Virus record (IMG/VR): IMGVR_UViG_3300035670_001186
Coordinates: 1-24,801 of that record
Length of the DNA: 24,801 nucleotides
Origin: a virus
Strand: one strand, 5' to 3'
The stretch's first letter is position 1. Every line of letters starts with the position of its first letter. Both the position numbers and the translations under genes were made by a program. The notes under the pieces are model-generated. The model was given only the letters and a program-made list of their open reading frames with translations, did no database searches and had not been told where the DNA came from. Positions 5,569 to 9,639 of the stretch are shown piece after piece.

Positions 5569-6411
5569 TCAGAAGCTGATGCCGTTGGACGCGCCCTTGC
5601 CAGCGGTCTTGGCGCCGGGAAGGTCGGAGAGGACGGTGACGCTGCCGGCGGTCTCGGCGTACCCGGGCCAATCGCCCGAGGTCATGCACCTGTCGTAGAT
5701 TGAATAGGCTCGGTCGACCTCCTTGTTTCCGAGGGCGAGCAGGTCGCCTCCGATCTCGTAGACCGCGCCAAGATGGGCACCCTCTTTCTCGACCATGATG
5801 AGGCGGAAGCCGCGGATGTCGGAGCGGTTGGCGCCGGCGAGGCGGATGTAGTGGGCGGCCTGGAGGTGGTATCCGAAGTTGAGGATGGTGCGGAGGGCGG
5901 CGCGCTCGGAGGCGTCGTCGGTGGTCTTGAGGTCGTAGATCCAGCCCTCGGCGTCGATGAGGTCGGGGATGCCCTTGAGCGGGGTTGCCTTGTCCTTGGC
6001 GAAGAGGGGACGCTCGACCCACGCGCCGTTGCGGTAGAGCAGGTTGTCGGAGATGCGGGTCGCGGCGAACCCCAGTTCGGTGGCGAGCTCGTACTCGTCA
6101 TTTGCGAGCAGGGTGTCTCCGGGCTTCAGGGAGGACAGGATGGCCTCGTAGGTGGCCTTGCCGTCCTTGGTGCGGCGGTCGAGGTCGGCGGGCAGGGTCT
6201 TGTAGGTGGTGGCCCATACGTCGGGCGTAAGGAAGGCGGCGTGGGTGGCCTTGCCGAGGCGGAGGGCCTTGGTCTCATCCTTGGGGTTCTTCTTCCAGTG
6301 CTGGAAGTGCGCGGGGGAGCGCAGGAGTTCCTTCATGCCGGAGTAGGAGAGGGCCTCGACGGCCTCGTACTCGGCGCGGGTCATGTTGCTGGCAGTGTTT
6401 GCGGTGGTCAT
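5569..6411 (-). CDS. RecE-like PD-(D/E)XK exonuclease
   Basis: The 280-aa protein has the motif order of phage RecB/RecE-family nucleases: LRLGKATHAAFL with H57, then GIPDLID with D150, IYDLKTTDD with D160 and K162, and YHLQAAHY with Q184. It would resect double-strand ends so that the ERF annealing protein (8974-9426) can act. The start MTTANTASNM at 6411 was chosen because upstream in-frame sequence lies in a region with an inverted repeat and no coding character. The mRNA leader is CCCCAACACACACAA with no Shine-Dalgarno. Confidence in the fold is high; direction of resection is unknown. Confidence 0.88.
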   Translation of the reverse strand: MTTANTASNMTRAEYEAVEALSYSGMKELLRSPAHFQHWKKNPKDETKALRLGKATHAAFLTPDVWATTYKTLPADLDRRTKDGKATYEAILSSLKPGDTLLANDEYELATELGFAATRISDNLLYRNGAWVERPLFAKDKATPLKGIPDLIDAEGWIYDLKTTDDASERAALRTILNFGYHLQAAHYIRLAGANRSDIRGFRLIMVEKEGAHLGAVYEIGGDLLALGNKEVDRAYSIYDRCMTSGDWPGYAETAGSVTVLSDLPGAKTAGKGASNGISF

Positions 6412-6516: not shown

Positions 6517-6855
6517 TCAGAGGTCGGTGTCGTCGACGCGCTCGATGGCGTCGGCTAGGTTGCGGGAGGCCTCGCGGAGTTTCTCGGCGAGCTCGACCAG
6601 GTGCTGCGAGGACACGTGCAACTCGTTGCAGATCGCGACGAGGAGGTCCATGCGGGCGGTGATGTGTGTGGCGTCCTCGTCGCGGAGGGCGGCGGTGACG
6701 GACTCGGGGCTGAGGGCGCGGAGGGCCTTGCGGGTGGCCTCGTGCATCGTCTCGGCGCAGTTGACCTGGTCGGCGGCGTCCTCGATGTCGCGGACGAGGT
6801 TGATGACCTTGGTGGCGTGGCGCAGGGCTTCGCCGGACTCTTCGGGGGTGCTCAT
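6517..6855 (-). CDS. Hypothetical helical protein, 112 aa
   Basis: The protein is almost entirely predicted helix with heptad-like stretches (MSTPEESGEALRHATKVINL at the start, LVELAEKLREASRNLADAIE at the end). No family is recognised. It is the first gene after the small-gene array and is preceded by a good sigma70-type promoter whose expected start site coincides with its ATG, so its mRNA may be leaderless. Confidence 0.7.
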   Translation of the reverse strand: MSTPEESGEALRHATKVINLVRDIEDAADQVNCAETMHEATRKALRALSPESVTAALRDEDATHITARMDLLVAICNELHVSSQHLVELAEKLREASRNLADAIERVDDTDL

Positions 6856-6861
6856 GGGGCT

Positions 6862-6890
6862 GTTATGGGATTGTGTAGAGGGATTGTCAA
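6862..6890 (-). promoter_or_regulatory. Predicted sigma70-type promoter for the 112-aa gene and downstream replication genes
   Basis: On the minus strand TTGACA (6885-6890) is followed by 17 nt and CATAAC (6862-6867). The -35 box is a perfect consensus and overlaps the stop codon of the last array gene. Only six bases separate the -10 box from the ATG at 6855, so transcription should begin at or next to the start codon. Confidence 0.6.
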
Positions 6891-7228
6891 CGGCCTTCCT
6901 TGGCGGCGAGCCACGCCCGGCGGCAGTCGAGCATCCCGTTGGTGGTTCCGTCGATTCGCTTCAGGTAGGCGTCCATTTCATCCCCGGCCGCGCGGAGACG
7001 CTCGACCTCGGCCTTGGCGACGACCAGTTGGTCCTTCAGCTGCTTGACCAGGTTGCGGTTGGCCTCGGCGGCGGCAATCGCGGCCTTGAGGTGCTCCTCG
7101 GTGCGGGACAGGCGGTCGTGCAGGAGGTAGTAGCAGGTGAGGGAGGTCCAGTCGCCGGACTGGTCGGGGCGCATCTCGGCCTCCTTGCCCTTAGAGACGG
7201 GGCGGTAGCGGACGAGGTCGGCGCTCAC
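6887..7228 (-). CDS. Array gene 6: coiled-coil protein with AWLAAKEGR tail, 113 aa
   Basis: This is the last member of the tandem small-gene array. It starts at a GTG in the overlap GTGA with the previous gene (VSADLVRYRPVSKGKEAEMR) and ends in AWLAAKEGR, a diverged form of the family tail. The middle is a long coiled coil (KQLKDQLVVAKAEVERLRAA). The ATG-like start further upstream in the same frame lies inside the previous gene's tail and was rejected. Proteins with the signature AEVERLRAAGD are common in phages without a known role. Confidence 0.68.
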   Translation of the reverse strand: MSADLVRYRPVSKGKEAEMRPDQSGDWTSLTCYYLLHDRLSRTEEHLKAAIAAAEANRNLVKQLKDQLVVAKAEVERLRAAGDEMDAYLKRIDGTTNGMLDCRRAWLAAKEGR

Positions 7229-7488
7229 GGTTGCACCCCCTTGGCGGCGAGCCACGCTTTAAGGACAGGCAGGGTTCGCATCAGACTATCGGCTGGCTCC
7301 CCAGCCTCGATTTCGATGCGCTCGGCGTAGTCCAATGCCACAGCATCCCCCGCCGCGCGTAGCCGCTCGTTCTCGGCCTTGAGCGCGGCGTAGTCATCGT
7401 GAAGGACATACTCGCCGCTGTCAGACGGAACCATGTCCGGGTTAAAACAGCAGTTCAGTTCCTCGACCTTGTATCGCTGGACGCTCAC
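7225..7488 (-). CDS. Array gene 5: YAALKAENERLRAAGDA protein, 87 aa
   Basis: It begins at the GTG within a GTGA overlap (VSVQRYKVEELNCC). It contains the family core GEYVLHDDYAALKAENERLR, then a variable segment, then KAWLAAKGVQP. Compared with array gene 2 the core and tail are conserved and the flanking 20-30 residues differ completely. Function unknown. Confidence 0.72.
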   Translation of the reverse strand: MSVQRYKVEELNCCFNPDMVPSDSGEYVLHDDYAALKAENERLRAAGDAVALDYAERIEIEAGEPADSLMRTLPVLKAWLAAKGVQP

Positions 7489-7853
7489 GACTGACCCCCC
7501 TTGGCGGCTCGCCACTTAATCAAGCAGTTGTAATGCGAGGCGGTGTTGCCAGCAGCCTTTTCCAAGTTGTCGGCAAGTTCGTTGGCATCGTTGCGGAGCC
7601 GCTCGTTCTCGGCTTGGAGGCGCTTGACCTCGTCGACCTGTTCGTGCCACATCCGGTTCCATTCCTTGAGTTCCCTGTCGCGGGCCTCGATGCTCATCTT
7701 GGAGCGGACGGACTCCTCCTCCATCTCGTCGATCACGGATTGGAGGTCGGCGGCCTCGGAAGAGTCCAGGTTCTGGTCCACCTCGCGGACGGCGGCGAGG
7801 AGGTCGTCCAAAGCCCCTTGGAGGCGGCGCAGCTTGTCGAGGCGCTCGCTCAC
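7485..7853 (-). CDS. Array gene 4: long coiled-coil protein with RAAKGGQS tail, 122 aa
   Basis: GTG start in a GTGA overlap (VSERLDKLRRLQGALDDLLA). Nearly the whole protein is heptad-rich (VDEVKRLQAENERLRNDANE), ending IKWRAAKGGQS. It keeps the start and tail of the array family but lacks the RYD and DYAAL segments, so it appears to be a different body joined to the same ends. Confidence 0.7.
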   Translation of the reverse strand: MSERLDKLRRLQGALDDLLAAVREVDQNLDSSEAADLQSVIDEMEEESVRSKMSIEARDRELKEWNRMWHEQVDEVKRLQAENERLRNDANELADNLEKAAGNTASHYNCLIKWRAAKGGQS

Positions 7854-7954
7854 GACTGCACCCCCTTGGCGACGTTGATAAGATTGATGATGGTCATTCC
7901 AATAGAAACACCGGCCAAGAACAGGGCGATGTGTGTGATGCGTTCTTCGCTCAC
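7850..7954 (-). CDS. Array gene 3: 34-aa single-helix membrane microprotein
   Basis: The frame from the GTG at 7954 to the TGA at 7850 translates as MSEERITHIALFLAGVSIGM, then TIINLINVAKGVQS. It has one hydrophobic helix (about residues 8-28). Both ends match the array: a GTGAGC start overlapping the upstream stop and an AKGVQS tail whose stop overlaps the next GTG. Without it there would be an unexplained 100-nt gap between coupled genes, which supports it as real despite its size. Confidence 0.65.
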   Translation of the reverse strand: MSEERITHIALFLAGVSIGMTIINLINVAKGVQS

Positions 7955-8205
7955 GACTGCACCCCCTTGGCGGCGAGCCACGCCTTCATAACACGGCGAA
8001 CAGCCAACTCCGAATAAGGATAGCCGTTGAAGTTGGCTTCGTGGGCAAGGTGCATCGCATCCCCCGCCTTGCGCAGCCGCTCGACCTCGGCTTGGAGGGC
8101 GGCATAGTCGGAGTAACGGACATAATCACCGTTATTAACTACGCCAATCACGGCATCATCAATCATTTGAGACCACATAAGGTCATATCGCATGGGCTGG
8201 CTCAC
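7951..8205 (-). CDS. Array gene 2: RYD / YSDYAALQAEVERLR protein, 84 aa
   Basis: GTG start at 8205 (VSQPMRYDLMWSQMIDD), then NGDYVRYSDYAALQAEVERL, RKAGDAM, a variable segment, and KAWLAAKGVQS. This is the best representative of the array family: N-terminal RYD, central short coiled coil, variable stretch, fixed tail. Such proteins are widespread in phages and vaguely recall Ea22-like proteins; no function is established. Confidence 0.75.
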   Translation of the reverse strand: MSQPMRYDLMWSQMIDDAVIGVVNNGDYVRYSDYAALQAEVERLRKAGDAMHLAHEANFNGYPYSELAVRRVMKAWLAAKGVQS

Positions 8206-8594
8206 GATTCCACCCCCTTGGCGGCGTGCCACGCATCACCGTCAATCGCATCCCATTCTTTCACAGGTTCGGGTTGAGTGACGCAATAAGTTCCCTCGGC
8301 AATAGCCCTCAATCCACGCCCTGCCTTGCGGAGACGCTCGTTCTCGAGTTCCAACTGAATGCAACGCTCCATCTCTGCGTTTTGATTTGCGGACTGCAAG
8401 TATGAGTCCGCTTGACTCAAGAACTCAACAAGTTCCTTTAGTTCTGCGACCTCGGCTTGGAGGGCGGCGTAGTCGGCGTACTTCACAAATAGTCCGCTTT
8501 CAGATTCAGAAACCAAAGGGCGCGTTTCGTGAAAACCTGTTGTCGGACAACTTTCAACAGTCAGTCCGAAGTCGTATCGCTTCGGCTGGCTCAC
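8202..8594 (-). CDS. Array gene 1: longest RYD / YADYAALQAEV member, 130 aa
   Basis: GTG start at 8594 overlapping the previous TGA (VSQPKRYDFGLTVESC). The core is LFVKYADYAALQAEVAELKE followed by an inserted helical stretch and a second LELENERLRKAGRG, then AWHAAKGVES. The two coiled-coil blocks suggest internal duplication or fusion of two array modules. The local DNA is AT-richer than its neighbours, a sign of recent exchange. Confidence 0.72.
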   Translation of the reverse strand: MSQPKRYDFGLTVESCPTTGFHETRPLVSESESGLFVKYADYAALQAEVAELKELVEFLSQADSYLQSANQNAEMERCIQLELENERLRKAGRGLRAIAEGTYCVTQPEPVKEWDAIDGDAWHAAKGVES

Positions 8595-8977
8595 TTGGCG
8601 CCTCCCTTCCTAGCCGCCGGCACGGCGATCGTCGTGTAGTTGACCTTCCCGCGGTCCTTCCCGGCCCAGCCCTCGGAGGCGGTGACGAAGCCGATGACGT
8701 CCTTGTACTTGGCGGCCAGGGCGGCGAGGTTCGTCTTGCGGATGAGTGGCTGGAAGTCGGCGACTACCGAGGCGCCGCCGATGGGGAACACCGTGCAGTC
8801 GGGTGCCACGCCCCAGAGGACGTAGCAGGAGGTCTCGGGGGAGACGCGGAAGGAATCCTTGGACTCCTCGCGGATGTGCTCGGCCTTGACCCGGGCGAGC
8901 TTGGCGTTGTGGACGGCTAGGCCTGCGACCTTGGGCTTGTCGAAGTCCGACGACTTGTAGATGGTGGGCTTGCTCAT
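8591..8977 (-). CDS. Hypothetical protein, 128 aa, between ERF and the array
   Basis: It begins MSKPTIYKSSDFDKPKVAGL and includes SFRVSPETSCYVLWGVAPDC and an FQPLIRKTNLAALAAKYKDV helix, ending in a basic AARKGGAK. It is probably alpha/beta. No family is recognised. The ATG at 8977 overlaps the ERF stop (ATGA), and its own stop overlaps the GTG of array gene 1. Being coupled to ERF, it may be a recombination or ssDNA accessory protein; that is inference only. Confidence 0.7.
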   Translation of the reverse strand: MSKPTIYKSSDFDKPKVAGLAVHNAKLARVKAEHIREESKDSFRVSPETSCYVLWGVAPDCTVFPIGGASVVADFQPLIRKTNLAALAAKYKDVIGFVTASEGWAGKDRGKVNYTTIAVPAARKGGAK

Positions 8978-9426
8978 CGGGAGGAGGGCGTCCAGGAGCG
9001 GGTTGCGGTGGCGGCGGGGTTGGCGCTCTCGTTGCCGTCGTCGTCGAGGTCCGTGGCGATGCCTAGGGCGGCCTGTATCGACTGCCGGCGGAGGTAGGTG
9101 AGGATGCCGCCGACCTGCTGGGCGTTGGTCTCGGGCTTCACGGCGACGGTGATCTCGCCGAGCTCCATGGCGCCCTCGGGGTGGACGATGGACGTGCGGA
9201 CGCCGACCCGGCCCTCGGTCGAGTAGACGGCCTGCGTGAGGGCGAGGCCGTGCTTGGCGAGGATGGGGCGGATGTGGTCGAGGATGTGGTCGAGGGTGGC
9301 GTAGCGCGACTTGAACGCGGGGTTCACCTTGTTGGCGGTCGGAGACGTCATCTCGGCCAGGGCGGCGGAGAGGCGGGCGTGGGGGGTCATGGTAGGGCTG
9401 GTGGTTTGGGTTTTGGGTGTGCTCAT
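8974..9426 (-). CDS. ERF-family single-strand annealing protein
   Basis: The 150-aa protein shows the ERF signature: NPAFKSRYATLDHILDHIRP (35-54), ILAKHGLALTQ, then GGILTYLRRQSIQAALGIAT followed by DLDDDGN (to about 132). ERF proteins anneal complementary single strands in phage recombination and work with a 5'-3' exonuclease, here the RecE-like enzyme at 5569-6411. The C-terminal tail after the ERF core is short and Ala/Thr/Ser-rich. The ATG at 9426 follows TTCCCTGCC with no Shine-Dalgarno. Confidence 0.87.
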   Translation of the reverse strand: MSTPKTQTTSPTMTPHARLSAALAEMTSPTANKVNPAFKSRYATLDHILDHIRPILAKHGLALTQAVYSTEGRVGVRTSIVHPEGAMELGEITVAVKPETNAQQVGGILTYLRRQSIQAALGIATDLDDDGNESANPAATATRSWTPSSR

Positions 9427-9441
9427 GGCAGGGAAAGTGAA

Positions 9442-9639
9442 TTAGGCCTTGTCGCAGTAGTCGGCGAGCTTGTCGTCGGAGACGCGCTTGACCTTGCCGT
9501 CGCCGGTGACCGCGAGGTTCCAGTAGCGGCGGCCGGAGATGACGATGGGCTTGAGGCGGCGGGCGGGCGTGCCGTCGGGCAGGAGCACGTAGGCGCGGCG
9601 CTCAGTTGAAGCGGTGGGGGTTGCGGGGGGCTTCTTCAT
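9442..9639 (-). CDS. Hypothetical small basic protein, 65 aa
   Basis: MKKPPATPTASTERRAYVLL, then PDGTPARRLKPIVISGRRYW and a C-terminal KVKRVSDDKLADYCDKA. The beta-rich middle and basic charge suggest nucleic-acid contact but no family is recognised. The ATG at 9639 follows an A/C-only leader (CCAAAACACCACCAACA). It overlaps the end of the upstream 64-aa frame by 38 nt. Confidence 0.6.
   Translation of the reverse strand: MKKPPATPTASTERRAYVLLPDGTPARRLKPIVISGRRYWNLAVTGDGKVKRVSDDKLADYCDKA

Follow-up and report, generated by a model that had tools for sequence, protein, structure and literature searches.

The stretch of DNA analysed here (the window) is the 24,801-nt virus record IMGVR_UViG_3300035670_001186, positions 1 to 24,801. 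On its minus strand, six small genes lie in tandem between a gene for a protein of 128 aa and one for a protein of 112 aa (Table 1). All six start with GTG, each GTG overlaps the TGA of the preceding gene as GTGA, and the encoded proteins end in versions of one short peptide, AAKGVQS, which is decayed in the sixth. Between these fixed ends the bodies differ, being an RYD segment plus coil, a long coiled coil or a membrane helix, and the array adjoins genes for an ERF/RecE recombination system. The original prediction had noted the six genes, their fixed ends and differing bodies and the recombination system, and the open reading frames and translations, together with the Pfam and PHROG matches of the two recombination genes, bear it out.

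Table 1 Features of the array and its neighbours in the window.
Feature	Position	Strand	Description
RecE/exonuclease VIII-like nuclease (PDDEXK, DUF3799)	5569..6408	-	PHROG 412 E=3.2e-55; PF12684 E=1.1e-21
Gene directly after array	6517..6855	-	112 aa; same position kept in L145
Array gene 6	6887..7228	-	113 aa; LVRYRP N-segment, coil, decayed end AAKEGR
Array gene 5	7225..7488	-	87 aa; RYK N-segment, coil, C-segment ending AAKGVQP
Array gene 4	7485..7853	-	122 aa; long coiled coil; end AAKGGQS
Array gene 3	7850..7954	-	34 aa; one hydrophobic (membrane-type) helix; end VAKGVQS
Array gene 2	7951..8205	-	84 aa; RYD N-segment, coil, C-segment ending AAKGVQS
Array gene 1	8202..8594	-	130 aa; RYD N-segment, coil segments, C-segment ending AAKGVES; ORF and translation
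Flanking gene	8591..8977	-	128 aa; same position kept in L145
ERF-family single-strand annealing protein	8974..9426	-	PF04404 E=3.4e-20; PHROG 2324 E=6.7e-33
Stop/start joint 1|2	8200..8234	-	SD AAGGGGGT, stop TGA/start GTG overlap; 3 mismatches over 35 bp
Stop/start joint 2|3	7949..7983	-	0 mismatches to reference over 35 bp
Stop/start joint 3|4	7848..7882	-	9 mismatches over 35 bp
Stop/start joint 4|5	7483..7517	-	6 mismatches over 35 bp
Stop/start joint 5|6	7223..7257	-	2 mismatches over 35 bp
Decayed joint, array end	6882..6916	-	11 mismatches over 35 bp; keeps GCGTGGCTCGCCGCCAAGG; no next-gene start
Coil joint copy, gene 1	8323..8354	-	6 mismatches of 32
Coil joint copy, gene 2	8066..8097	-	3 mismatches of 32
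Coil joint copy, gene 4	7588..7619	-	2 mismatches of 32
Coil joint copy, gene 5	7352..7383	-	5 mismatches of 32
Coil joint copy, gene 6	6987..7018	-	9 mismatches of 32

A PHROG scan of array proteins 1, 2, 4, 5 and 6 gave no matches, and a Pfam scan of the same proteins gave matches in one only, below the cut-off and of the coiled-coil kind. The AlphaFold model of the product of gene 2 is weak (mean pLDDT 62), with a disordered N-terminal end and two helices. The N-segment of gene 6 is related to that of genes in two other loci, L140 and L144. The mini-gene with a single hydrophobic helix recurs as a module (window 7850-7954, L129:3675-3818, L072:4332-4460 and L140:2694-2840); its size and type recur, and the sequences from different arrays look unrelated.

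The genes are connected by a repeated piece of DNA that we call the stop/start joint. Its 26-bp version, GCCGCCAAGGGGGTGCAGTCGTGAGC, has five copies in the window, all on the minus strand and each with 0-2 mismatches, against a mean of 0.00 copies in 100 dinucleotide-preserving shuffles of the window. The near-identical DNA predicted for five junctions is therefore real, as is the predicted sixth, decayed copy. Gene 1 starts (8594) with a GTGA overlap and a Shine-Dalgarno (SD) sequence of its own, but the full joint is absent there. The consensus of the joint is GCCAAGGGGGTGCAGTC or GCCAAGGAGGCCAAGC followed by GTGAGC, and it carries a strong SD (AAGGAGG or AAGGGGGT) suitably spaced from the GTG.

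The joint is widespread in viruses. In IMG/VR at least 119 stretches matched a loose joint pattern, 41 the window's own flavour, and the joint is present in more than 140 contigs. Relatives of the array were gathered via this pattern and not by protein queries; in IMG/VR, neither the nuclease (P0002) nor the 128-aa gene (P0001) retrieved relatives as a single-sequence query. Across 147 loci we counted 335 joints (≤4 mismatches), and none in a reversed-sequence control. Spacing from joint to joint has a median of 278 bp, and 144 of 185 spacings fit one gene between joints. The genes started by a joint (183 families among 306) lie in the non-structural region and are flanked by recombination and replication genes. 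Matches to Pfam, PHROG and PADLOC for 56 modules were mostly coiled-coil noise, with a few named exceptions. Joints also precede identifiable genes, that is, those for a RecE-type nuclease, a dNMP kinase, a phosphoesterase, a DnaC-like loader and a Lar-like restriction alleviation protein; in alignment A1 these include L068:3728-4513 and L008:4089-4709.

Two flavours of the joint dominate. AKGVQS*/GTGAGC is found in phages with ERF, metallophosphoesterase and dNMP kinase, AKEAK[PL]*/GTGAGC mostly in phages with RecT, and no locus has both ERF and RecT. Fifty larger records (19-68 kb) have 0-6 joints each, on a single strand per record, and most genes in these phages are without the joint sequence. 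When a tighter pattern was run against bacteria and archaea (84,980 genomes, 257 billion bases), nine single matches and no arrays were obtained; with so few isolated matches, the joint is neither a host element nor a common prophage. The search in other phages that the original prediction had proposed thus found the joint widespread in IMG/VR viruses and almost absent from cells. Among named phages, neither the array DNA nor the major head protein gave a match; a test module gave none either, a result of little weight because the query was an approximate composite of module motifs.

Exchange of modules was assessed at 312 joints with sufficient flank by ungapped nucleotide comparison of pairs from different contigs, which are not phylogenetically independent. 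This comparison was used because protein-family adjacencies, counted on genes from a home-made caller, carried too much noise for arrays to be distinguished from other regions. The loci were cut at about 15 kb, and genes were called with a simple caller. In 148 pairs the downstream side was shared and the upstream side different, in 282 the upstream side was shared and the downstream side different, and in 154 both sides were shared. The swap fraction at joints is 0.74 (pairs sharing one side; kinship ignored), as compared to 0.20 at overlaps more than 1.5 kb away from joints and to no swaps (0/85) at module midpoints. Within -20 to +13 of the GTG, identity falls from about 0.95 (shared side) to about 0.25 (other side), and across the joint the linkage to the upstream gene falls while that to the downstream gene rises.

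A conservative grouping at the protein level gave the same picture, with families joined to many unrelated partners and seven squares in which two upstream families occur in all combinations with two downstream families. Forty-four adjacencies recur in at least two metagenomes, and seven upstream and seven downstream families each have at least two partners that themselves recur across metagenomes. Recurrence in independent metagenomes shows that these adjacencies are no chimeras of the assembly. One could argue that the whole pattern is an artefact, produced either by assemblers joining contigs at short repeats or by tandem duplication and divergence without any exchange between phages. Indeed, the relatives are all metagenomic contigs, and some genes of the window are paralogous (genes 2 and 5, for example, share 75 nt at 79%). 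However, not only the adjacencies but also the alternative partners recur, and near-identical joints between unrelated bodies are unexplained by duplication alone. The reads and k-mers of usual assemblies are longer than the joints, which also counts against an assembly artefact. We give this explanation next to no credence.

Direct cases of exchange are seen in closely related contigs. L113 and L018 differ by 1,949 bp located between two joints, and a 26-bp overlap remains in the shorter contig; L069 differs from L112 and L031 by 782 bp, again between joints and with a 25-bp overlap. Such clean joint-to-joint indels are few (two independent ones). L144 and L140 share 92-94% identity across more than 5 kb; the identity ends inside the coil segment of one gene, reappears only over the 35 bp of the stop/start joint, and is then restored from the ATGAGC of the following conserved gene onwards. 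Thus, the C-terminal half of one gene and the entire next gene were replaced. The closest relative of the window, L145, has ERF, nuclease and metallophosphoesterase proteins that are 73%, 71% and 78% identical to those of the window, and carries two modules in the slot in which the window carries six. A further case is contig 3300032093_007230, where the C-terminal half of window gene 2 (84% identity over 147 nt, coil included, with a different N-half) immediately adjoins the N-terminal half of window gene 1 (86% identity over its N-terminal 144 nt); the order of the two segments is reversed compared to the window, and both are fused to other partners. Altogether, whole genes and gene halves are swapped, reordered, gained and lost at joints in about 150 virus contigs, and arrays in the same genomic slot differ in the number and order of their modules. 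The original prediction had expected just this variation in relatives, with breakpoints at the joints and joints more conserved than bodies, and had reasoned that recombination between joints would move whole genes in frame; the comparison was positive throughout, and swaps, indels and reordering at joints are what was seen.

Other overlaps of the NTGA type with an SD in the same arrays also swap, with a fraction of 0.64, and here the similarity extends little beyond the SD core and the NTGA. Long joint homology is therefore not strictly required. In L004, L005, L011 and other AKEAK loci, NTGA overlaps such as TTCAAATGGAAGGAGTGCAAATGAGC and GAGAAATGGTTGGAGGGAAGATGA have also exchanged neighbours, the breakpoints falling at the NTGA, and resemble additional flavours of the joint or minimal versions of it.

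A second repeated element lies inside the genes. It is present in five of the six array genes (≤9 mismatches in 32 bp) and encodes a LQAENERLRKAG coiled coil; in the flavour of the window this coil joint is about 32-45 bp long, encodes a LQAENERLRKAGDA coiled coil and is found mid-gene in most array genes. Intragenic breakpoints fall at the coil motif in 528 of 786 distinct cases, as compared to 24% of random positions, the motif having been picked after inspection. A strict coil regular expression gave too few sites and was replaced; a strict long DNA pattern matched only one contig, which indicates that the coil joint varies between lineages. When pairs were anchored on the coil, N- and C-terminal sides were swapped in 120 pairs and shared in 28 for the flavour of the window, and swapped in 130 and shared in 31 for the other flavour. 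This test and the codon test described below are separate from the enrichment, yet they too are anchored on coil motifs found by inspection. The coil segment, which the original prediction had regarded as a protein feature only, is a second joint at which N- and C-terminal halves are exchanged. Contig 3300032093_007230 also has a gene of 200 aa (L159:1258-1860, minus strand) that contains the DNA of the coil joint several times over, which gives the impression that segments were serially inserted between coil joints.

Both joints are conserved as DNA. The codon test compared identical residues in genes with unrelated bodies, and the same residues elsewhere in the same genes served as control. 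At stop/start joints the same codon was used with a frequency of 0.97 and 0.95, against 0.36-0.40 in the control, in line with the conservation of synonymous sites that alignment of the junctions had been expected to reveal. The value was 0.86 for the coil joint of the window flavour (control again 0.36-0.40); for the AKEAK-flavour coil joint the effect was weaker (0.60, control 0.38). In addition, the type of joint correlates with the family of the downstream gene, even though the joint itself is part of the upstream gene (permutation p<1/5000). The translational role of the stop/start joint could explain part of its codon conservation. For the coil, which has no ribosome site, common descent or exchange of the shared DNA is the simpler account.

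These data bear on the possibility that recombination is illegitimate and nearly random, that selection sorts the products and that the joint is a conserved ribosome-binding or translational-coupling element rather than a substrate for exchange. Such a process would agree with the strong SD at a proper distance from the GTG, with swapping at NTGA overlaps that have SD similarity alone, and with the related start-associated repeat of Cluster K phages (PMC3203893). On the other hand, the joint is conserved beyond the SD and at synonymous sites, the coil joint, which is no ribosome site, is likewise conserved as DNA and likewise a place of breakpoints in the lineage of the window, the joint type follows the downstream family, and most genes lack the joint (0-6 copies per 19-68 kb record, one strand). 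We regard this explanation as unlikely; the evidence, although indirect, speaks for joint homology and less for selection on outcomes as the determinant of the breakpoints. In all likelihood the process is a mixed one, in which annealing at joints is accompanied by joining at the short similarity of SD and NTGA, filtered for in-frame, translated genes.

Breakpoints fall in sequence common to both partners, as seen from the identity profiles, the 25-26 bp overlaps at the indels and the L144/L140 pair. Of the 26 multi-joint records, 18 encode RecT or ERF and 14 a RecE-type nuclease; the eight records without RecT or ERF may be fragments. A tyrosine integrase (PF00589) was found in none of the 26 multi-joint records and in four of 50 records overall, all single-joint, and a serine recombinase in none of the 50. 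The four integrase records (L057, L081, L095 and L102) have one joint match each, which may be a chance or unrelated pattern match. The minimal efficient pairing segment is 23-27 bp for Red-beta and 31-34 bp for RecA (PMC3945230). Thus, the joint length of 23-36 bp, which fits Red-beta and is short for RecA, and the absence of integrases point to recombination by an exonuclease plus an annealing protein.

Short conserved sites in one orientation that flank single genes would also be expected if a dedicated recombinase or endonuclease recognised the joint, similar to what happens with integron cassettes or in a shufflon. However, apart from the lack of integrases and serine recombinases in the records mentioned, two joint flavours and an unrelated coil joint are in use, joint RNAs of the window fold no better than shuffles (z -1.07 to +0.74), and the crossover points are spread across the joint and have no fixed position. 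Site-specific recombination is therefore highly improbable.

Exchange itself is observed; for the enzyme we infer the annealing system of the phages. In our opinion the locus is probably a mosaic cassette array with two alternating kinds of joint, in which crossovers are made by a RecE-type exonuclease together with ERF or RecT and in which joints and products are selected. The stop/start joint (about 23-35 bp) combines the end of one gene with the SD of the next and the GTGA overlap, and a crossover between two such joints would exchange whole genes in frame, ribosome site included. A crossover between two coil joints would give a chimera of N- and C-terminal halves. The exonuclease and the annealing protein would act on identities of 23-36 bp, and the partners would be co-infecting phages or copies within one genome. 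Selection might retain the joints as ribosome site or translational coupler and as coil, and might retain the products because varied early accessory proteins for host take-over or counter-defence pay. It is tempting to speculate, if only tentatively, that the two joints form a dedicated system for combinatorial protein diversification, similar to exon shuffling but in intron-free virulent phages. In such a system RecE together with ERF or RecT would mix whole genes and domain halves at a high rate, the joints would be selected partly because they recombine, and the phages would gain novel early proteins to counter the defences of the host.

Between the AKEAK lineage and the Verrucomicrobia phage P8625, the RecT proteins have 39% identity, and the phosphoesterase and head protein of the window are 23-24% identical to those of this phage, which is lytic (PMC4642752). 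P8625 (L157, NC_029047) has RecT, metallophosphoesterase and a distant head protein in common with the array lineages. It has no joints, however, so that the array may have been gained in one branch. From these protein similarities a verrucomicrobial host of the window phage is plausible. The phage is probably virulent, since multi-joint relatives are without integrases and prokaryote genomes are without prophage copies.

With genes and halves swapped, reordered, gained and lost exactly at the seams, the array behaves like a kit of interchangeable parts for making new proteins. It has been argued whether the neat mosaic boundaries between phage genes result from random joining plus selection or from homology at the boundaries. 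Here this question is directly testable, because joint identity, exchange frequency and type of recombinase (ERF or RecT) vary between lineages. The arrays also offer an origin for the numerous small orphan genes of phages that encode coiled coils (AEVERLRKAGD-type), which would then be recombined segments and not independent families. Finally, they are a place to seek variable counter-defence genes, and Lar-like antirestriction members are among the modules.

Modular shuffling at promoter-early stem-loops (PeSLs) was reportedly described in T4-type phages by Arbiol et al. in 2010 and Comeau et al. in 2014. As far as those accounts go, short repeats between small accessory genes and shuffling of these genes among related virulent phages are common to both systems, and small genes are indeed shuffled at a repeated junction here. 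PeSLs, however, are intergenic units of promoter and terminator/stem-loop, whereas the joints described here are coding, hold a ribosome-binding site and a stop/start overlap, and are accompanied by a second joint inside genes. A scan of window positions 6600-9500 for sigma-70-like promoters and terminators found none.

In Cluster K mycobacteriophages the SAS/ESAS element, GGGATAGGAGCCC, lies 3-7 bp upstream of the start; a role in translation initiation was proposed, and the available part of the paper does not link it to gene exchange (PMC3203893). Like the joint, SAS as presented there is a repeat in one orientation with an AGGAG core just upstream of starts, is conserved beyond the SD, is restricted to non-structural genes and is attached to different gene families. 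The sequence differs (GGGATAGGAGCCC compared to GCCAAGGGGGTGCAGTC or GCCAAGGAGGCCAAGC before GTGAGC), the joint spans the stop/start overlap with a fixed C-terminal peptide whereas SAS lies upstream of the start, and that part of the account has no coil joint. Gene-cassette arrays of integrons have been reported also in phages (PMC9892861). To judge from the available part of that source, they too have small genes separated by a recurrent element and vary in number and order, but the multi-joint records have neither an integron-type tyrosine integrase nor a folded attC-like site.

Also close are the linkers at module boundaries of lambdoid phages and the relaxed recombination by Rad52-like proteins (Red-beta, ERF, RecT) as a source of mosaicism (PMC3945230, PMC4546147). 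Exchange driven by homology at short conserved boundaries and by phage annealing proteins is probable for the array too; a Rad52-like annealing protein is encoded in the window (ERF) as well as in the 18 multi-joint records with RecT or ERF. Unlike the lambdoid linkers, one boundary sequence is repeated here at many positions of the array, which allows modules to vary in order and number, and at the coil joint the halves of domains are exchanged. In outcome the array thus resembles PeSL shuffling and the exchange at lambdoid linkers, and in its position the Cluster K element. A coding stop/start joint combined with an internal coil joint and reassortment of both genes and domains was not found in the open-access literature. 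In our view the array is probably a variation on homology-driven phage mosaicism.
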